A DNA stretch of 41,066 nucleotides, taken from an uncultured Candidatus Saccharibacteria bacterium. GTDB taxonomy: Bacteria > Patescibacteriota > Saccharimonadia > Saccharimonadales > Saccharimonadaceae. The position numbers were made by a program, and so were the translations under genes. Shown piece after piece: positions 11,669 through 26,613 of this stretch. Under the pieces are notes generated by a model. It had not been told where the DNA came from, searched no databases, and was given only the letters and a program-made list of their open reading frames with translations. Location: the NCBI GenBank assembly GCA_949480205.1, contig CASXXK010000006.1:1-41066 (forward strand), read 5' to 3'. Position 1 is the stretch's first letter, and each line of letters opens with the position of its first letter.

Positions 11669-12763
11669 TTACATCTTGCTCCTGATGACGATTCTGAAGT
11701 ACGGCGTAATTCTGCGCAAGCGCCTCTCTCTCTCTCTCTCGGTGCCGCTATTATCGCTCATTGTATAAGTTAGGTCCTTGCCGTCATCACCTTTACGAAA
11801 CTTTTCAATCTCAAATTGTTCCGGACAATACTTGTCGAGAAAGCTAATCGGCACGCCCATCCCGGCTTTATAATCACTCGGAATCGCATCGGTATACGAG
11901 ACTTCTATTGCATCGTAATTATCATATTTCGGGTATCCGCGCTCACGTATTTCTTTGTGTTTACTATACTTAAGATTGTCCGCCATAGTCATGAGTGAAA
12001 GTGGCTGATGGCGACGCCCATGATCGAGATTAGTGAACCATATTACTCCACTTACCCGAATCATGCCTTCCTGATGGTCGGATGCGGTGGCATAATCTTG
12101 ATAATACTTGTTTATAAAATGGGTTGCTCCACCTTTAAAGCCAGTGCCAAGCCACAATTTATTGTACTTTATTAGAGGGAATACCTCTTTGTAAGTTATG
12201 GCATTTTGATGAGCTATAGTTATGATTCTGCGTTGATTACCATCTAGAGCCCAGGCTAGAAACTCACGAAACAATGAAAATGGCGGATTAGTGATAATTA
12301 TATCCGCTTCATCACGCAACTCACAAACTTCCTCACTTCGAAAATCGCCATCACCATCAAGGTAATCCCACTTCAGATCATTGATATCTATCTTTTTATC
12401 CCGATTCCTATCATTTTCCAGCACAAAGATCTTGCCGCGCGATCTAGTTTTATTCCTATCAAACTTCGGATCGCTCATTTCAAATAAAGTCGGTTGATAA
12501 GCAATTTCTGACGGTTTACTATCGGCGGCGTAACTCGTACTAATTAGCTTCTTCAACCCAAAAGTTTCAAAATTTTGCGCAAAATACTTGGTAAAATTAC
12601 TCCATTCTGGGTCATCACAAGGTAAAAGAATTGTTTTACCGCGAAAAACATCTGGATTGTACTCCAAATATGCGTTCATTTCACGTTCAATATCAGCGTA
12701 TTGAGTATAAAACTCATCGTTTTTGGCTCGTTTTGCTTGATGCAGGGAATCGTTCTTTGCCAT
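11669..12763 (-). CDS. EcoRI-family adenine-specific DNA methyltransferase, GA-repeat switch
   Basis: A 364-residue protein of the EcoRI methylase family, transferring methyl from SAM to adenine N6. It shows NDEFYTQYADIEREM at the start, catalytic motif IV ITNPPFSLF (Asn159-Phe162), IAHQNAI, WLGTGFKGG, WFTNLDHGRR, and the C-terminal block GVPISFLDKYCPEQFEI ending in YFRIVIRSK. The ATG at 12763 is six bases after TATAAT, so a leaderless mRNA is expected. Near the end a (GA)8 tract encodes ERERER. In the present frame the protein has module A as C-terminus; other repeat counts fuse it to modules B or C. It probably protects host DNA from the adjacent DUF262-HNH and GIY-YIG nucleases. Confidence 0.85.
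   Translation of the reverse strand: MAKNDSLHQAKRAKNDEFYTQYADIEREMNAYLEYNPDVFRGKTILLPCDDPEWSNFTKYFAQNFETFGLKKLISTSYAADSKPSEIAYQPTLFEMSDPKFDRNKTRSRGKIFVLENDRNRDKKIDINDLKWDYLDGDGDFRSEEVCELRDEADIIITNPPFSLFREFLAWALDGNQRRIITIAHQNAITYKEVFPLIKYNKLWLGTGFKGGATHFINKYYQDYATASDHQEGMIRVSGVIWFTNLDHGRRHQPLSLMTMADNLKYSKHKEIRERGYPKYDNYDAIEVSYTDAIPSDYKAGMGVPISFLDKYCPEQFEIEKFRKGDDGKDLTYTMSDNSGTERERERRLRRITPYFRIVIRSKM
11724..11740 (-). repeat. (GA)8 simple sequence repeat in methyltransferase
   Basis: A 17-base alternating GA run on the coding strand near the 3' end of the methyltransferase. Dinucleotide runs of this length are typical slipped-strand phase-variation sites. All three downstream frames are open into plausible C-termini. 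Confidence 0.85.
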
Positions 12764-20901: not shown

Positions 20902-21705
20902 ATGAAGAGTCTGAACGGTGCCGAAATCGCCGATTATATGAAATTAAATCAAGTACACCAGGCGCGCAGCCTGCAAGCACGTGGGATAAAACCAAAATTG
21001 GTGATTATCCGTGACAGCGATAATCCAGTAATCGTAAAATATGTTAATCTTAAAAAACAATACGGTGAAGATATCGGCGTGATGGTGGAAGATTGGCTAC
21101 GAGAAGATGTGGCGCAAGCAATTGCAGAAGCCAATGCGGATTCGACCGTGCATGGCATTATTGTGCAACTGCCACTCAAGGACACTAGCAAAACCGACGA
21201 AATTGTCAGTAAAATTGCGCCAGAAAAGGACGTAGATGGTTTGGCGACAATATATCATGAGACGAATGATATATTTGAATCAGCCACTGCAACGGCGATT
21301 AACTGGCTATTAGCGGGTTACGACATTAAATTGCAAGGTAGCAAGATCGCTTTGGTGGGGCGCGGACGCTTGGTGGGCGCCCCACTTGAGCGCATGTGGA
21401 AAAATTCTGGCTACGACGTGACTGTATTTCGGAGCCATAGCGACCTGAATAAATTAAAAGATTTTGACGTAATCGTAAGCGCCACGGGTGTGCCACATTT
21501 GATAAAATCCGAAATGATTAAGCCTGGTGCGGTCGTTGTCGACGCCGGAACTGCTAGCGAAGATGGCGTTTTGGTGGGTGACGTAGATGAATCTGTACGA
21601 GCGCAGGCGAATCTTTCCGCAATTACACCAAAAGTGGGCGGGGTTGGCCCGCTCACTGTAACGGCATTGTTTGAGCACGTGCTAATGGCAGCGAACAATC
21701 GTTAG
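20902..21705 (+). CDS. folD: FolD, methylene-THF dehydrogenase/cyclohydrolase, divergent
   Basis: A 267-residue protein interconverting 5,10-methylene-THF and 10-formyl-THF. The catalytic Lys in YVNLKKQYGEDIG and the Gln of VQLPLKD are kept, as are the Rossmann motif VGRGRLVGAP and KVGGVGPLTV near the C-terminus. The usual PCTP block after the DVDG motif reads SATATA, and the NADP-loop HS/T block reads VFRSHSD, so it is a divergent member. Two bases separate it from murB (SD GGAGA). Its end overlaps the convergent MATE fusion gene by four bases. Confidence 0.88.
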   Translation: MKSLNGAEIADYMKLNQVHQARSLQARGIKPKLVIIRDSDNPVIVKYVNLKKQYGEDIGVMVEDWLREDVAQAIAEANADSTVHGIIVQLPLKDTSKTDEIVSKIAPEKDVDGLATIYHETNDIFESATATAINWLLAGYDIKLQGSKIALVGRGRLVGAPLERMWKNSGYDVTVFRSHSDLNKLKDFDVIVSATGVPHLIKSEMIKPGAVVVDAGTASEDGVLVGDVDESVRAQANLSAITPKVGGVGPLTVTALFEHVLMAANNR

Positions 21706-23693
21706 TTCGCTAACTGACAAATTATTTCTGCCACCTTTTCCTGTCCGAGCGAAGCGTCGACACAGAGATCATAGTTGCGTGGATCGCCCCAGTCTTGGCC
21801 AGAAATCAGGCTATAGTATTCGGCGCGATTCTTGTCGGAGCGCTCAACATTCTTAGCTGCATCTTTTTCATTATCATCATACATCGCCATCACATTCTTA
21901 ATGCGGAAATCTTTAGGTGCATAAATGAAGACGCGAAGCAGATTTGGATTGTCGCGCAAAACATAATCGGCAGCGCGGCCCACAATCACACAGGAACCTT
22001 GCTCGGCAATATTATGTAAGACAGCATCCTGAGCCTCAATGGCATATTTGGCGGGTGAGGTCGTGAGGTAAAGCTCGTGCATAATTTGCTCACCATCGTT
22101 ACTATTGACCTTCTTGATATATTCCTGGTCAATACCACTTTCTTGAGCAGCCAAAGCGGTCAATTCCTTATAGTAATATGGGATACCAAGCTGCTTAGCC
22201 ACCAATTCGCCGATTTTCTTCCCTTGCGAACCGTGTTCACGCGAAATCGTAATGATGACGCCAGGGTGAGATTTCTGAATTGTTGCAGCGGTCGCCGCTG
22301 TAGTAGCGTGCTCACGACCGAGGTGACGGAAGTAGGCAATGGCTAAGCCACCTGCAATGATGATGCCAAAGATGTCGGCAACCGGCGCCGCCCAAAGAAT
22401 ACCGTTAATGTTGTTCATCATCCGTGGGAGAATGAGGACCAGCGGCACAAAAAGAACAATATCGCGCGAGAGTGAAACGATGGCGGCGCGCAAAGGCTCG
22501 CCCACAGCTTGGAAGAAGATAGAAATAACTTTGATAGTACAGGTGAGCGTAATGAGCAGCAAGAAGATGCGGAAAGTCAATGTAGCAAATTGCATATAAA
22601 GTTCTGGGTTCTCAGAGTTGGAACCAAAGATATTGATGATAAACTGCGGACAGACTTCAAAGATGACAGTTGCCACTAAGCCCACGACAATCGTAGCAGT
22701 AAGACATTTACGGAAAGTTTCGCGAACACGGTCGAATTTGCCAGCGCCAATGTTAAAACCAAGGATTGGCTGTGCACCGATAATAATGCCCATAGCAATA
22801 CTCAAGACGATAGTGAAGACTTTCATACAGATGCCGATAATGGCGAGTGGGTCGTTAGCACCGTAAACCGAGTTTGCGCCATAGACAGCCAGCATTTTAT
22901 TACAGACCATGGAGATAATCACAATGGAAAGCTGAGTAATGAGAGTGGAAATACCGAGTTTAGCAACAGTACTCACCACTTGGCCAGCAGGTTTGAAGCT
23001 TTCGAGCTGCAAACGGAAAGTTTTGGTGCGAAAAAGGTAAATCACGGAAAGAGCGAGCGTGAGAATTTGACCCAAAATTGTAGCCCAAGCTGCACCGCGA
23101 ATACACCAATTGAGAACAAAGATAAAGACTGGGTCAAGGATGATGTTGGTGATGGCACCAGCTACGGTGGCAATCATCGCAAAGGATGGCGCACCGTCTG
23201 CTCGAATCACCGAGTTAAGCATATAGCCCAGCATATAAATCGGGAAAAACGAGATAATAATATAGAAATATTGGCGGGCATAGATAAGATTCTCGCCACT
23301 GGCACCAAAAAGACCGAGAATCTGATCGCAGAAAATATAGCCAAGTGCCACCAAGACAATACTAATGATAAAAGTAATCAGCATGCTACTGCCGACTGCG
23401 CGATGAGCGTTTTTAGTATCTTTGCGCCCCTGGCAGATTGACAGGAAGGCAGCAGTCCCATCACCAAACATACCCGAAAGCGCTACGGCTACGAGCGTCA
23501 GCGGAAAAACAATTGAAGTGGCGGCGTTACCCACAGCACCAAGGCCGGGAGCCGTACCATGGCCGATAAAGATTTGGTCGACAACGTTATAAAGTGAAGT
23601 AATAAGTAAGGCTAGGATGCAAGGAATTGAAAACTTTAGCAAAAGCTTAGAAATCTTTTCCTTTCCTAGATATTTGTTTTCTGTGCTATCCAT
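21702..23693 (-). CDS. MATE efflux transporter fused to cytidylate kinase-like domain
   Basis: A 663-residue fusion. Residues 1 to about 460 are a MATE (NorM/DinF-type) transporter with about 12 membrane helices and motifs such as DQIFIGH and LDPVFIFVLNW, exporting cations or drugs with Na+/H+. Residues about 475-663 resemble the cytidylate-kinase-like family (Cytidylate_kin2): ITISREHGSQGKKIGELVAKQL carries a P-loop-like GSQGKKIG, then CVIVGRAADY, and a C-terminal DLCVDASLGQEKVAE. The kinase-like half would be cytoplasmic. ATG 23693 is chosen over GTG 23696. The 5' region (23694-23830) has a TTGCAGC/GCTGCAA hairpin and a TAAAAT box; no known riboswitch recognised. Confidence 0.88.
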   Translation of the reverse strand: MDSTENKYLGKEKISKLLLKFSIPCILALLITSLYNVVDQIFIGHGTAPGLGAVGNAATSIVFPLTLVAVALSGMFGDGTAAFLSICQGRKDTKNAHRAVGSSMLITFIISIVLVALGYIFCDQILGLFGASGENLIYARQYFYIIISFFPIYMLGYMLNSVIRADGAPSFAMIATVAGAITNIILDPVFIFVLNWCIRGAAWATILGQILTLALSVIYLFRTKTFRLQLESFKPAGQVVSTVAKLGISTLITQLSIVIISMVCNKMLAVYGANSVYGANDPLAIIGICMKVFTIVLSIAMGIIIGAQPILGFNIGAGKFDRVRETFRKCLTATIVVGLVATVIFEVCPQFIINIFGSNSENPELYMQFATLTFRIFLLLITLTCTIKVISIFFQAVGEPLRAAIVSLSRDIVLFVPLVLILPRMMNNINGILWAAPVADIFGIIIAGGLAIAYFRHLGREHATTAATAATIQKSHPGVIITISREHGSQGKKIGELVAKQLGIPYYYKELTALAAQESGIDQEYIKKVNSNDGEQIMHELYLTTSPAKYAIEAQDAVLHNIAEQGSCVIVGRAADYVLRDNPNLLRVFIYAPKDFRIKNVMAMYDDNEKDAAKNVERSDKNRAEYYSLISGQDWGDPRNYDLCVDASLGQEKVAEIICQLAN

Positions 23694-23894
23694 CACAAAA
23701 AATCCTGTTTAGAATTAATATTTATTAGTCTGCCCTCCGAGCTAATTCCCTGTGGATTGCAGCAGATTGACGATTGTACGCTGCAAAGCTGGGTCAACTT
23801 TTTGTATTTTAGCACAATATTTTTGAAAATGGATAGGTTTGTTGTGAAAATTACAACAATATAATGGCTTTTCTGCAATTTTATTGATTTCTTA

Positions 23895-23923
23895 TTGACT
23901 TTTGTTAATATGTGTGCTATAAT
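23895..23923 (+). promoter_or_regulatory. Promoter of poly-G gene leader
   Basis: TTGACT (23895-23900), 17 bases, TATAAT (23918-23923) with TGC before the box. Start predicted near 23930. Confidence 0.75.
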
Positions 23924-23929
23924 TAAAGT

Positions 23930-24106
23930 ATGTGGTGGCAGTGTTCCATAGTTCCTTGTAATTATTCATACCGAAAGTTTACGTCTAACTGCCTAGCAAC
24001 GAAAAGTCCGGAAAGTTTCTAGCTTTTTCGCTGCTAGGCAGCGTGCCATGGATTATGGTCGATACATAAAAATGTTTTCGATCAAAAATAAAAGGAGGTA
24101 GTTGGC
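23930..24106 (+). promoter_or_regulatory. Long structured 5' leader
   Basis: About 175 nt of untranslated leader, unusual beside the mostly leaderless genes here. It contains a strong hairpin, CTGCCTAGCA (23989-23998) with TGCTAGGCAG (24032-24041), extended inside by GAAAAG/CTTTTTC, and a possible closing helix TGGCA/TGCCA. It ends with SD AAGGAGG. A regulatory RNA is likely; no known class recognised. Confidence 0.55.
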
Positions 24107-24511
24107 ATGATTATAGTGAACAAACAAGGTCAAGACATTATGGGGGGGGGGGATAAAAGGATTGCGTTTGCAGTAAACACCGAAGGGCATAATGACGCAG
24201 GTTTTGCAGGAATGATTTCCACGCGATTTTGGCCAGAATTAGCGTGCATTGGGGCGTGTCAACTCGGTACTGTGCTATCCAAAACAACTGATTCCGGGTT
24301 GGTGCTATATGCTTTGGTATGCCATTCGCTGAAGAACGGCTGGATAGACCAGGCCGAAACTATCAAAAAATGCTTTGATTCTATTGATACCGATGAGCCT
24401 ATTGCAAGTATTTCCATTGGGACGGGCCTCATTGGCATGCTCAGTGGTGCGGATTTTGAGCAGATTAAGAGAGGTATGGAACTCTCTAACAAAAAGATTA
24501 TCCTTTATTAG
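24107..24511 (+). CDS. Macro-domain-like protein with poly-G tract, probably phase-variable
   Basis: A 134-residue soluble protein. The second half (ASISIGTGLIGMLSGADFEQIKRGMELS, ending KIILY) resembles the ADP-ribose-binding loop and last helix/strand of a small macro domain; the assignment is moderate. Right after codon 12 an 11-G run (24142-24152) encodes Gly-Gly-Gly. One G more or fewer gives stops within a few codons, so the gene would be OFF. Here it is ON. It is preceded by a standard promoter and a long structured leader, and followed by a strong terminator. Its role may be ADP-ribose/NAD-derivative handling or an unrelated surface-independent function. Confidence 0.6.
   Translation: MIIVNKQGQDIMGGGDKRIAFAVNTEGHNDAGFAGMISTRFWPELACIGACQLGTVLSKTTDSGLVLYALVCHSLKNGWIDQAETIKKCFDSIDTDEPIASISIGTGLIGMLSGADFEQIKRGMELSNKKIILY
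24142..24152 (+). repeat. Homopolymer of 11 G
   Basis: A G11 run inside the coding start of the macro-like gene. This is a typical contingency-locus tract for slipped-strand mispairing; it is also sensitive to sequencing error. Confidence 0.9.
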
Positions 24512-24541
24512 CGTCTATCGGTTTTGTTGTTTCAGTGTGAG

Positions 24542-24573
24542 AAAGAGCCCAGTTGAATTGGGCTCTTTTATTT
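24542..24573. terminator. Bidirectional terminator
   Basis: AAAGAGCCCA (24542-24551) pairs with TGGGCTCTTT (24559-24568), with a T tract on one side and A-rich sequence on the other. It serves the macro-like gene and, on the minus strand, lepA. Confidence 0.85.
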
Positions 24574-26613
24574 TTAGCTATCTCGTTTCAGCATTACCGT
24601 AAACGCTTCGCTCGGGATATCGATTTTACCGAAGCGCTTCATGCGAGCCTTACCTTTCTTCTGTTTTTCGAGCAACTTAGCCTTGCGGTCACGATCGCCG
24701 GTGTGAATTTTTACCGTCACGTCTTTACGGTAAGCGCCAATAGTCTCACGGGCAATAATTTTAGCACCGATGGCGGCCTGAAGAGCTACTTCGAAGTTTT
24801 GGCGTGGAATTACGGTTTTGAGTTTTTTGGTAATTTCGCGCCCAAGAGCATCGGCTTCGGAACGATGACACATTAGGCTGAGCGCATCAATCCGCTGACC
24901 GCCTACGAGAAAATCAAGTCGTACCAAATCTTCCGCGCGATAATCAGACAACTCATAATTAAAACTGGCATAGCCTGACGTGATACTTTTGAGCTGGTCA
25001 TAAAAATCCGTAAGCAGGTTGGCCATAGGCGCCTCAAAGTCAATCACGGCGCGATCTTCAATATAGCTCAGATTGGTCTGGTGGCCGCGTTTTTCGTTAA
25101 TCAGGTTCAGCACGCCACCAATCATGGTCTGAGGGAGAATAATTTCGCCCTTGACCCACGGCTCGCGAATTTCTTGCACCGTAGAAATATCCGGTAAATC
25201 GGCCGCCGAGCGAATATTTAAATTCTCACCATTTGCTAAAGTAACCTCATAGTTGGTGCTGGGGTTAGTAATCACGAGATCGAGGTTAAATTCCCTTTCC
25301 AGGCGCTCACGAATAATGTCCATATGGAGCAAACCCAGGAAGCCAATGCGCAAACCAAAACCAAGGACTGGAGAATTTTCGGGCTCAAAATGCAGCGCCG
25401 AATCGGACATAGCTAGCTTCTCAACCGCGTCTTTGAGATCTTGGTACTGGTCGTTAGAAACTGGGAAAAATCCAGCATAGACAAACGGCAAAACATTTCT
25501 GTAGCCCGGAAGTGGCGTGGTGGCAGGAGTTTTGGCAAGCGTAACTGTATCACCGACTTTGGCTTCGCGAGTAGTTTTGAGGTTAGTGACAATATAACCA
25601 ATGCTGCCCTCCTCGAGACTGGCGGTAGGAGCCATTTTGGGTGTGAGCGCACCGACTTCCAAGGCAAGTCCGTTAGTGCCGGCCGCCATCATGCGGATTT
25701 CGGAATTTTTGGGGATGATACCTTCAAAAATGCGCACGTAAAGGACGACGCCGCGGTAGTCGTCGAAGTATGAGTCGAAAATTAAAGCCCGGGTGCGAGG
25801 CCTACTATGCGCATCCATTTCGGTAGAGGACCGGTCGTCGCGCCATCCCGCCGTTGCGGGTGTCGCGCGCCCTGCGTTCTCGGTCGTAACCTGCGAAAGC
25901 TCCTCTACCGAAATGCTGCCCATAGCTATGTTTCGTGCCGAGGCTAGTTGACTTTCTTTCTCAGGAGCATCCGCGACCAACGGGGAGCGGAACGAGCTAG
26001 TCTCGCCCGTAACGACGGGCCGAGACGTAGCGTCTCCTGAAAAGAAAGTTGGCTGGTAGGCGGCACGTAAAGTTGGTGCGGGCGCTTTGGTAATAATGCG
26101 GTCGAGAATTTCAGGGACGCCTTGGCCAGTTTTGCCGGAAGCCAGAATGATTTCTTCGGGTTTGCAGCCAAGCAAGTTAACAATTTGGGCGATGACTTTT
26201 TCGACGTCAGCTGCTGGTAGGTCAACTTTGTTAATTACTGGAATAATATACAAGTCCTGTTCAAGCGCTAAATAGACGTTCGCCAGGGTTTGCGCCTGAA
26301 TGCCCTGCGTAGCATCCACCACTAATACTGCGGCTTCTACCGCTTGTAATGAACGTGAAACTTCATAAGAAAAGTCGACGTGCCCCGGGGTGTCAATCAG
26401 GTTCAAAACGTAATCTTTCCAGTGCATTTGCACCGGTGTGAGTTTAATCGTAATGCCCTTTTCGCGCTCTAATTCCATTGAATCAAGCAACTGCGACTTC
26501 ATTTCGCGCTGCGAGACCGTACCAGTTAATTCCATCATGCGGTCGGCGATCGTAGACTTGCCGTGGTCGATGTGGGCGATAATACAGAAATTGCGAATTT
26601 TATCTGGATTCAT
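24574..26613 (-). CDS. lepA: Elongation factor 4 with palindrome-encoded insertion
   Basis: A 679-residue translational GTPase that back-translocates or remodels stalled ribosomes. G1 is AHIDHGKST, G3 DTPGHVDF, G4 NKVDLPAA; the C-terminal domain has RIGFLGLLHMDI and the family-typical end KKGKARMKRFGK. Typical length is about 600. The extra residues (about 85) sit between KAPAPT of domain I and RALIFDSYFD of domain II, replacing the usual short linker. The insertion is encoded by GC-rich inverted repeats. The ATG at 26613 is seven bases after TATAAT (leaderless); the -10 boxes of lepA and tilS lie back to back. Confidence 0.95.
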   Translation of the reverse strand: MNPDKIRNFCIIAHIDHGKSTIADRMMELTGTVSQREMKSQLLDSMELEREKGITIKLTPVQMHWKDYVLNLIDTPGHVDFSYEVSRSLQAVEAAVLVVDATQGIQAQTLANVYLALEQDLYIIPVINKVDLPAADVEKVIAQIVNLLGCKPEEIILASGKTGQGVPEILDRIITKAPAPTLRAAYQPTFFSGDATSRPVVTGETSSFRSPLVADAPEKESQLASARNIAMGSISVEELSQVTTENAGRATPATAGWRDDRSSTEMDAHSRPRTRALIFDSYFDDYRGVVLYVRIFEGIIPKNSEIRMMAAGTNGLALEVGALTPKMAPTASLEEGSIGYIVTNLKTTREAKVGDTVTLAKTPATTPLPGYRNVLPFVYAGFFPVSNDQYQDLKDAVEKLAMSDSALHFEPENSPVLGFGLRIGFLGLLHMDIIRERLEREFNLDLVITNPSTNYEVTLANGENLNIRSAADLPDISTVQEIREPWVKGEIILPQTMIGGVLNLINEKRGHQTNLSYIEDRAVIDFEAPMANLLTDFYDQLKSITSGYASFNYELSDYRAEDLVRLDFLVGGQRIDALSLMCHRSEADALGREITKKLKTVIPRQNFEVALQAAIGAKIIARETIGAYRKDVTVKIHTGDRDRKAKLLEKQKKGKARMKRFGKIDIPSEAFTVMLKRDS
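25817..25914. repeat. Palindromic insert 1 within lepA
   Basis: Perfect 14-bp arms ATTTCGGTAGAGGA (25817-25830) and 25901-25914 enclose a GC-rich core with an inner hairpin CCCGC/GCGGG (25847-25860). The whole segment stays in frame inside lepA. Confidence 0.8.
25949..26050. repeat. Palindromic insert 2 within lepA
   Basis: Near-perfect arms (CTTTCTTT..TCAGGAG at about 25952-25966, and its complement at 26034-26050) enclose an inner hairpin TCTCG-CCCGT/ACGGGCCGAGA (26001-26024). In frame, adjacent to insert 1. Confidence 0.75.

Follow-up and report, generated by a model that had tools for sequence, protein, structure and literature searches.

The window analysed here, a stretch of 41,066 nucleotides, encodes on its plus strand the 134 amino acid open reading frame (ORF) that had been predicted at 24107-24511, as verified in the sequence and its ORF translation. 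This gene is enclosed by recognisable expression signals and carries a run of eleven G, and a gene for a methylase with a second simple repeat lies elsewhere in the window on the opposite strand. The features are as follows.

11669/11672-12763, minus strand: EcoRI-type adenine methylase (PF13651, E 5.9e-120)
23895-23923, plus strand: sigma-70-type promoter TTGACT-17-TATAAT with TG before the -10 box (extended -10), 11/12 consensus matches
23989-24041, plus strand: 5'-UTR stem-loop CTGCCTAGCA...TGCTAGGCAG, a strong fold
24091-24098, plus strand: Shine-Dalgarno AAAGGAGG, 8 nt upstream of the ATG, read from the sequence
24107-24511, plus strand: macro-domain ORF of 134 aa, assigned by homology of relatives, model pLDDT 94.3 and TARG1 Z 14.4
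24142-24152, plus strand: 11-G tract, overlapping codons 12-16 and encoding Gly13-Gly15
24541-24569, plus strand: intrinsic-terminator-like stem-loop with T-rich tail

The strong promoter, the Shine-Dalgarno sequence, the terminator and 16 relatives in the same frame together indicate that the macro gene is real. The original prediction placed an 11-G run directly after codon 12; a run of this length does exist, but it begins inside that codon, an ATG whose third base is the first G of the run. When tract lengths were simulated, 8, 11 and 14 G left the frame open and gave proteins of 133, 134 and 135 aa, respectively, while the protein ended at 15-16 aa with 9 or 12 G and at 22-23 aa with 10 or 13 G. 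The claim that the +1 and -1 frames stop early, on which ON/OFF switching of the gene would depend, was borne out. The sole nearby in-frame restart is Met36, which is not preceded by a Shine-Dalgarno sequence. Transcriptional slippage at long homopolymers is known in bacteria, and slippage of polymerase or ribosome at the RNA level would yield a constant mix of complete and shortened protein while the DNA length stays fixed. We consider this explanation most improbable, since eleven G are already in frame and slippage is not needed for the protein, and since the out-of-frame products would be just 15-23 aa long.

When the window protein alone served as query, the 174 genomes of the genus gave no relative, nor did phages, plasmids or viral contigs. 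A distant phylum match was then used for a two-sequence profile, and this profile search recovered 16 relatives, 44-69% identical, from Clostridia, Bacilli, Saccharibacteria and a Nealsonbacterium; one further distant member was also counted for the macro-domain ORF. All 16 relatives are read in the frame of the window protein both before and after the tract position. Across the tract a relative reads D-I-L-K-S-G-E-K-R where the window protein reads D-I-M-G-G-G-D-K-R, and the closest relatives align without gaps over the tract itself, so that the loop length is kept and the present 11-G length is the ON state with the loop length of the family. None of the 16 relatives has a G run at the tract position, which indicates that the tract arose in this lineage. 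An orthologue bearing the tract was not found in any other genome searched, including the 174 genus genomes, and a DNA pattern with free G count had no match in viral contigs. The macro gene stands alone and, in the genomes searched, occurs in this species only. This restriction to one species, as well as the missing tract in the relatives, would agree with a tract that is real and slippery without being selected as a switch, in a recently acquired dispensable gene heading for loss. We regard such a fate as unlikely, because the frame is intact and promoter, Shine-Dalgarno and terminator are strong, because the replaced residues preserve the loop length of the closest relatives, and because long tracts of this lineage tend to lie where they could regulate or switch a gene (see below).

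The protein had been described as having a macro-domain-like fold, to be checked by structure prediction, and the prediction gave a full-length macro-domain match. The AlphaFold model from 17 sequences reached pLDDT 94.3 and pTM 0.89 (a single-sequence model, with pLDDT 43, was unusable), and in it Gly13-Gly15 lie in the loop that connects a short helix to the strand 18-24. Foldseek matched macro domains over the full length with E down to 3e-6, and the fold is shared as a whole with TARG1 (C6orf130/OARD1; VIA-align Z 14.4, rmsd 2.5, 126 aligned), Poa1p (Z 14.0) and the DarG macrodomain of M. tuberculosis (Z 13.0). The family is hardly recognised by sequence profiles: at the curated cut-off the window protein did not match Pfam Macro (PF01661), to which one of 17 members had a hit at E 0.09. 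As the HH comparison with TARG1 was not significant, the link to TARG1 is drawn from structure. Residues were mapped by MAFFT sequence alignment rather than by residue-level structural alignment, using a TARG1 sequence verified against PDB chain 2lgr; in this mapping D20, K84 and D125 of TARG1 correspond to Asp/Asn10, His73 and Ile109, respectively. The window protein thus appears to keep the Asp/Asn at the GDI position and the IG.G loop, whereas the catalytic pair Lys84/Asp125 of TARG1-type ADP-ribosyl-glycohydrolases is absent from it in the sequence alignment. Among the members, 16 of 17 have His at the K84 position and most have Ile or Val at the D125 position, and a C-x-S....W motif is invariant in the family instead. 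Binding of ADP-ribose or a nucleotide is plausible. Most likely the protein would bind ADP-ribose or a related nucleotide and act in stress, phage or toxin conflict. We infer the role in conflict from the gene being mobile as well as switchable, and such a role would be expected of a gene that stands alone, has moved horizontally and occupies a site whose content differs between close relatives.

With regard to mobility, the closest relative genome found (G064), with 100% identity in the C-terminal part of LepA, keeps the same flanks, namely the MATE-cytidylate-kinase gene and lepA, but holds 2.4 kb of other genes between them (L104 6076-8204 versus 23865-24580 in the window). This insert has two unrelated ORFs of 254 and 373 aa, neither of which had a Pfam or PADLOC match. 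The arrangement points to an exchange of cargo at a variable site. The neighbour genes of the relatives likewise vary from genome to genome, and among 68 flanking ORFs of 15 relatives, inspected by eye without a profile scan, no conserved operon partner was seen. No DarT toxin gene was evident adjoining the macro gene within the window, and PADLOC gave no match. The flanking gene at 21702-23696 on the minus strand encodes a MATE transporter and a cytidylate-kinase-like domain fused in one ORF.

The length of the tract lies far beyond the normal tail of the run-length curve of the genome. In a 234 kb sample of the own genome, with the window included, 118 G/C runs were 5 long, five were 6 long and one was 7 long, none had a length of 8-10 and one was 11 long. 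The whole genome (855 kb) contains 8 G/C runs of at least 9, three of them 11 long, while by our arithmetic a random sequence of equal composition would be expected to contain about 2 runs of at least 9 and 0.1 of length 11. The size of the genome and its gene content would suggest a place in the Patescibacteria/Saccharibacteria. Homopolymers are error-prone, two-colour Illumina chemistry yields false poly-G and some long tracts of relatives sit at contig ends, all of which might suggest an assembly or sequencing artefact in which the real run would be shorter or otherwise differ in length. Such an error is very unlikely here: the tract is internal to the 41-kb contig and away from its ends, its 11-G length preserves both the frame and the spacing of the family, and another tract of the same genome, in the leader of a sugar transferase, is G11 and equally G11 in a second species.

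Long G runs were found to be frequent in the genus, with runs of at least 10 in 31 of 60 genomes; runs of at least 11 occurred in 10 of 117 other genomes searched more widely in the order. Relatives contributed 59 distinct tracts, 25 of which sit on the G-sense strand between -35 and -10 boxes, a position called where the pair scored at least 10 of 12, compared to chance levels of 1.1% with shuffled flanks and 0.8% at random places and to 2 of 59 on the C-sense strand. Loci with G/C runs in promoter spacers include L016, L019, L020, L021, L027, L028, L032, L034, L129, L132, L133, L134, L141, L142 and L145, among others. The tract-bearing spacers are 15 to 22 nt long, a spread that would be expected from a sample of both ON and OFF lengths. 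Most of them stand ahead of genes for secreted or wall-anchored proteins, and a T4SS pilin and a papain-like protease are also encoded downstream of such spacers. A simple hydrophobicity rule assigns a hydrophobic N-terminus to 18 of 25 downstream proteins (background 45 of 158), and a loose sortase-like anchor pattern was found in 8 of 17 complete ones (background 2 of 158). The genome of the window itself has such a spacer tract in the promoter of an ABC transporter and a further one in the promoter of a LiaF-like gene. Across the lineage, coding tracts form the minority.

Tract lengths were also compared between species, using assemblies rather than reads. The ABC-transporter promoter tract is C9/C10/C11/C15 in four species (L012, L115, L120, L044) and a tract upstream of an exporter is C11/C10 in two (loci L015, L116), while the sugar-transferase leader tract mentioned above has the same length in both species (L014, L117). 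Further, a coding C10 tract is present in L152 and L154 near 1507-1516, where the frame changes precisely at the tract between the two halves of the gene; the frame of the same gene family is open in a third species (L153). The original prediction, that phase variation is used by this reduced genome, gains backing from the spacer enrichment, the length differences between orthologous tracts and the frame-shifting C10 tracts in the genus. Phase variation in the lineage is well supported, and for the macro gene at 24107-24511 it is likely. In the literature searched, which lacks the majority of preprints and subscription journals, we found no report of phase variation in this lineage.

Most known cases of simple-repeat phase variation come from host-adapted pathogens. 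Homopolymer switches in promoter spacers include those of meningococcal porA/opc and Bordetella fim, and the poly-G tracts of the genus resemble them in lying between -35 and -10 with spacers of 15-22 nt, whereas the tract of the macro gene is in the coding part and not in a promoter. ORF-type contingency genes with poly-G or poly-C have been described for Neisseria hmbR/hpuA (PMC3786947) and the Campylobacter phasome (PMC6321876). The macro gene is like these in having a G/C homopolymer within the ORF at which plus or minus one truncates early. It differs in that the Neisseria and Campylobacter genes are mostly surface, glycan or R-M genes of pathogens, while we find a macro-domain gene whose product is probably cytosolic, in a lineage of reduced genomes.

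In our judgement the macro gene is probably an ORF-type simple-repeat contingency gene with a slipping 11-G tract. Slipped-strand mispairing in replication would add or remove G in the tract. The tract length of the assembly would be the ON length, giving the complete 134-aa macro-domain protein, and one or two G more or fewer would lead to truncation after 15-23 residues, so that the population would mix ON and OFF cells. A high slip rate of the tract and selection for ON/OFF switching are what we infer in addition. Phase variation in a reduced-genome lineage, with many tracts in the promoters of surface proteins, would offer a source of differences between cells that can be tested, in organisms with seemingly few regulators, and a macro-domain gene that can be switched would connect ADP-ribose biology with bet-hedging. 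With somewhat less confidence we suggest that the genus diversifies surface and conflict genes by poly-G switches, mostly in promoter spacers but with coding tracts (the macro gene) and a three-ended methylase in addition, and that phase variation is a general life strategy.

The methylase just mentioned carries a (GA)8 tract at about 11724-11740, in the 3' part of the gene, and bears out the earlier statement that the window holds a second simple-repeat switch. With n=8, 9 and 10 repeats the protein would be 364, 424 and 490 aa long, respectively. At n=8 it matches the PF13651 profile to its end, and the frames of n=9 and n=10 run on into two other C-termini; each of the three alternative ends carries a MGVPISFLDKxCPEQFEI module. 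Switching of C-terminal sequence by simple repeats has been described for Helicobacter canadensis (PMC2823697), and the methylase is similar in that a dinucleotide tract in its 3' part lets the frames yield different C-termini, but it differs in that all three frames are open and each end has the module. From its sequence the methylase is a candidate for a three-way switch.

A further observation concerns the 5'-UTR stem-loop of the macro gene. It had no Rfam family match, and a reading of the hairpin as integron attC-like was dropped, as just one half-site fits by eye. The region that holds it folds better than shuffles (z -2.9), and the stem-loop might be a regulatory element.
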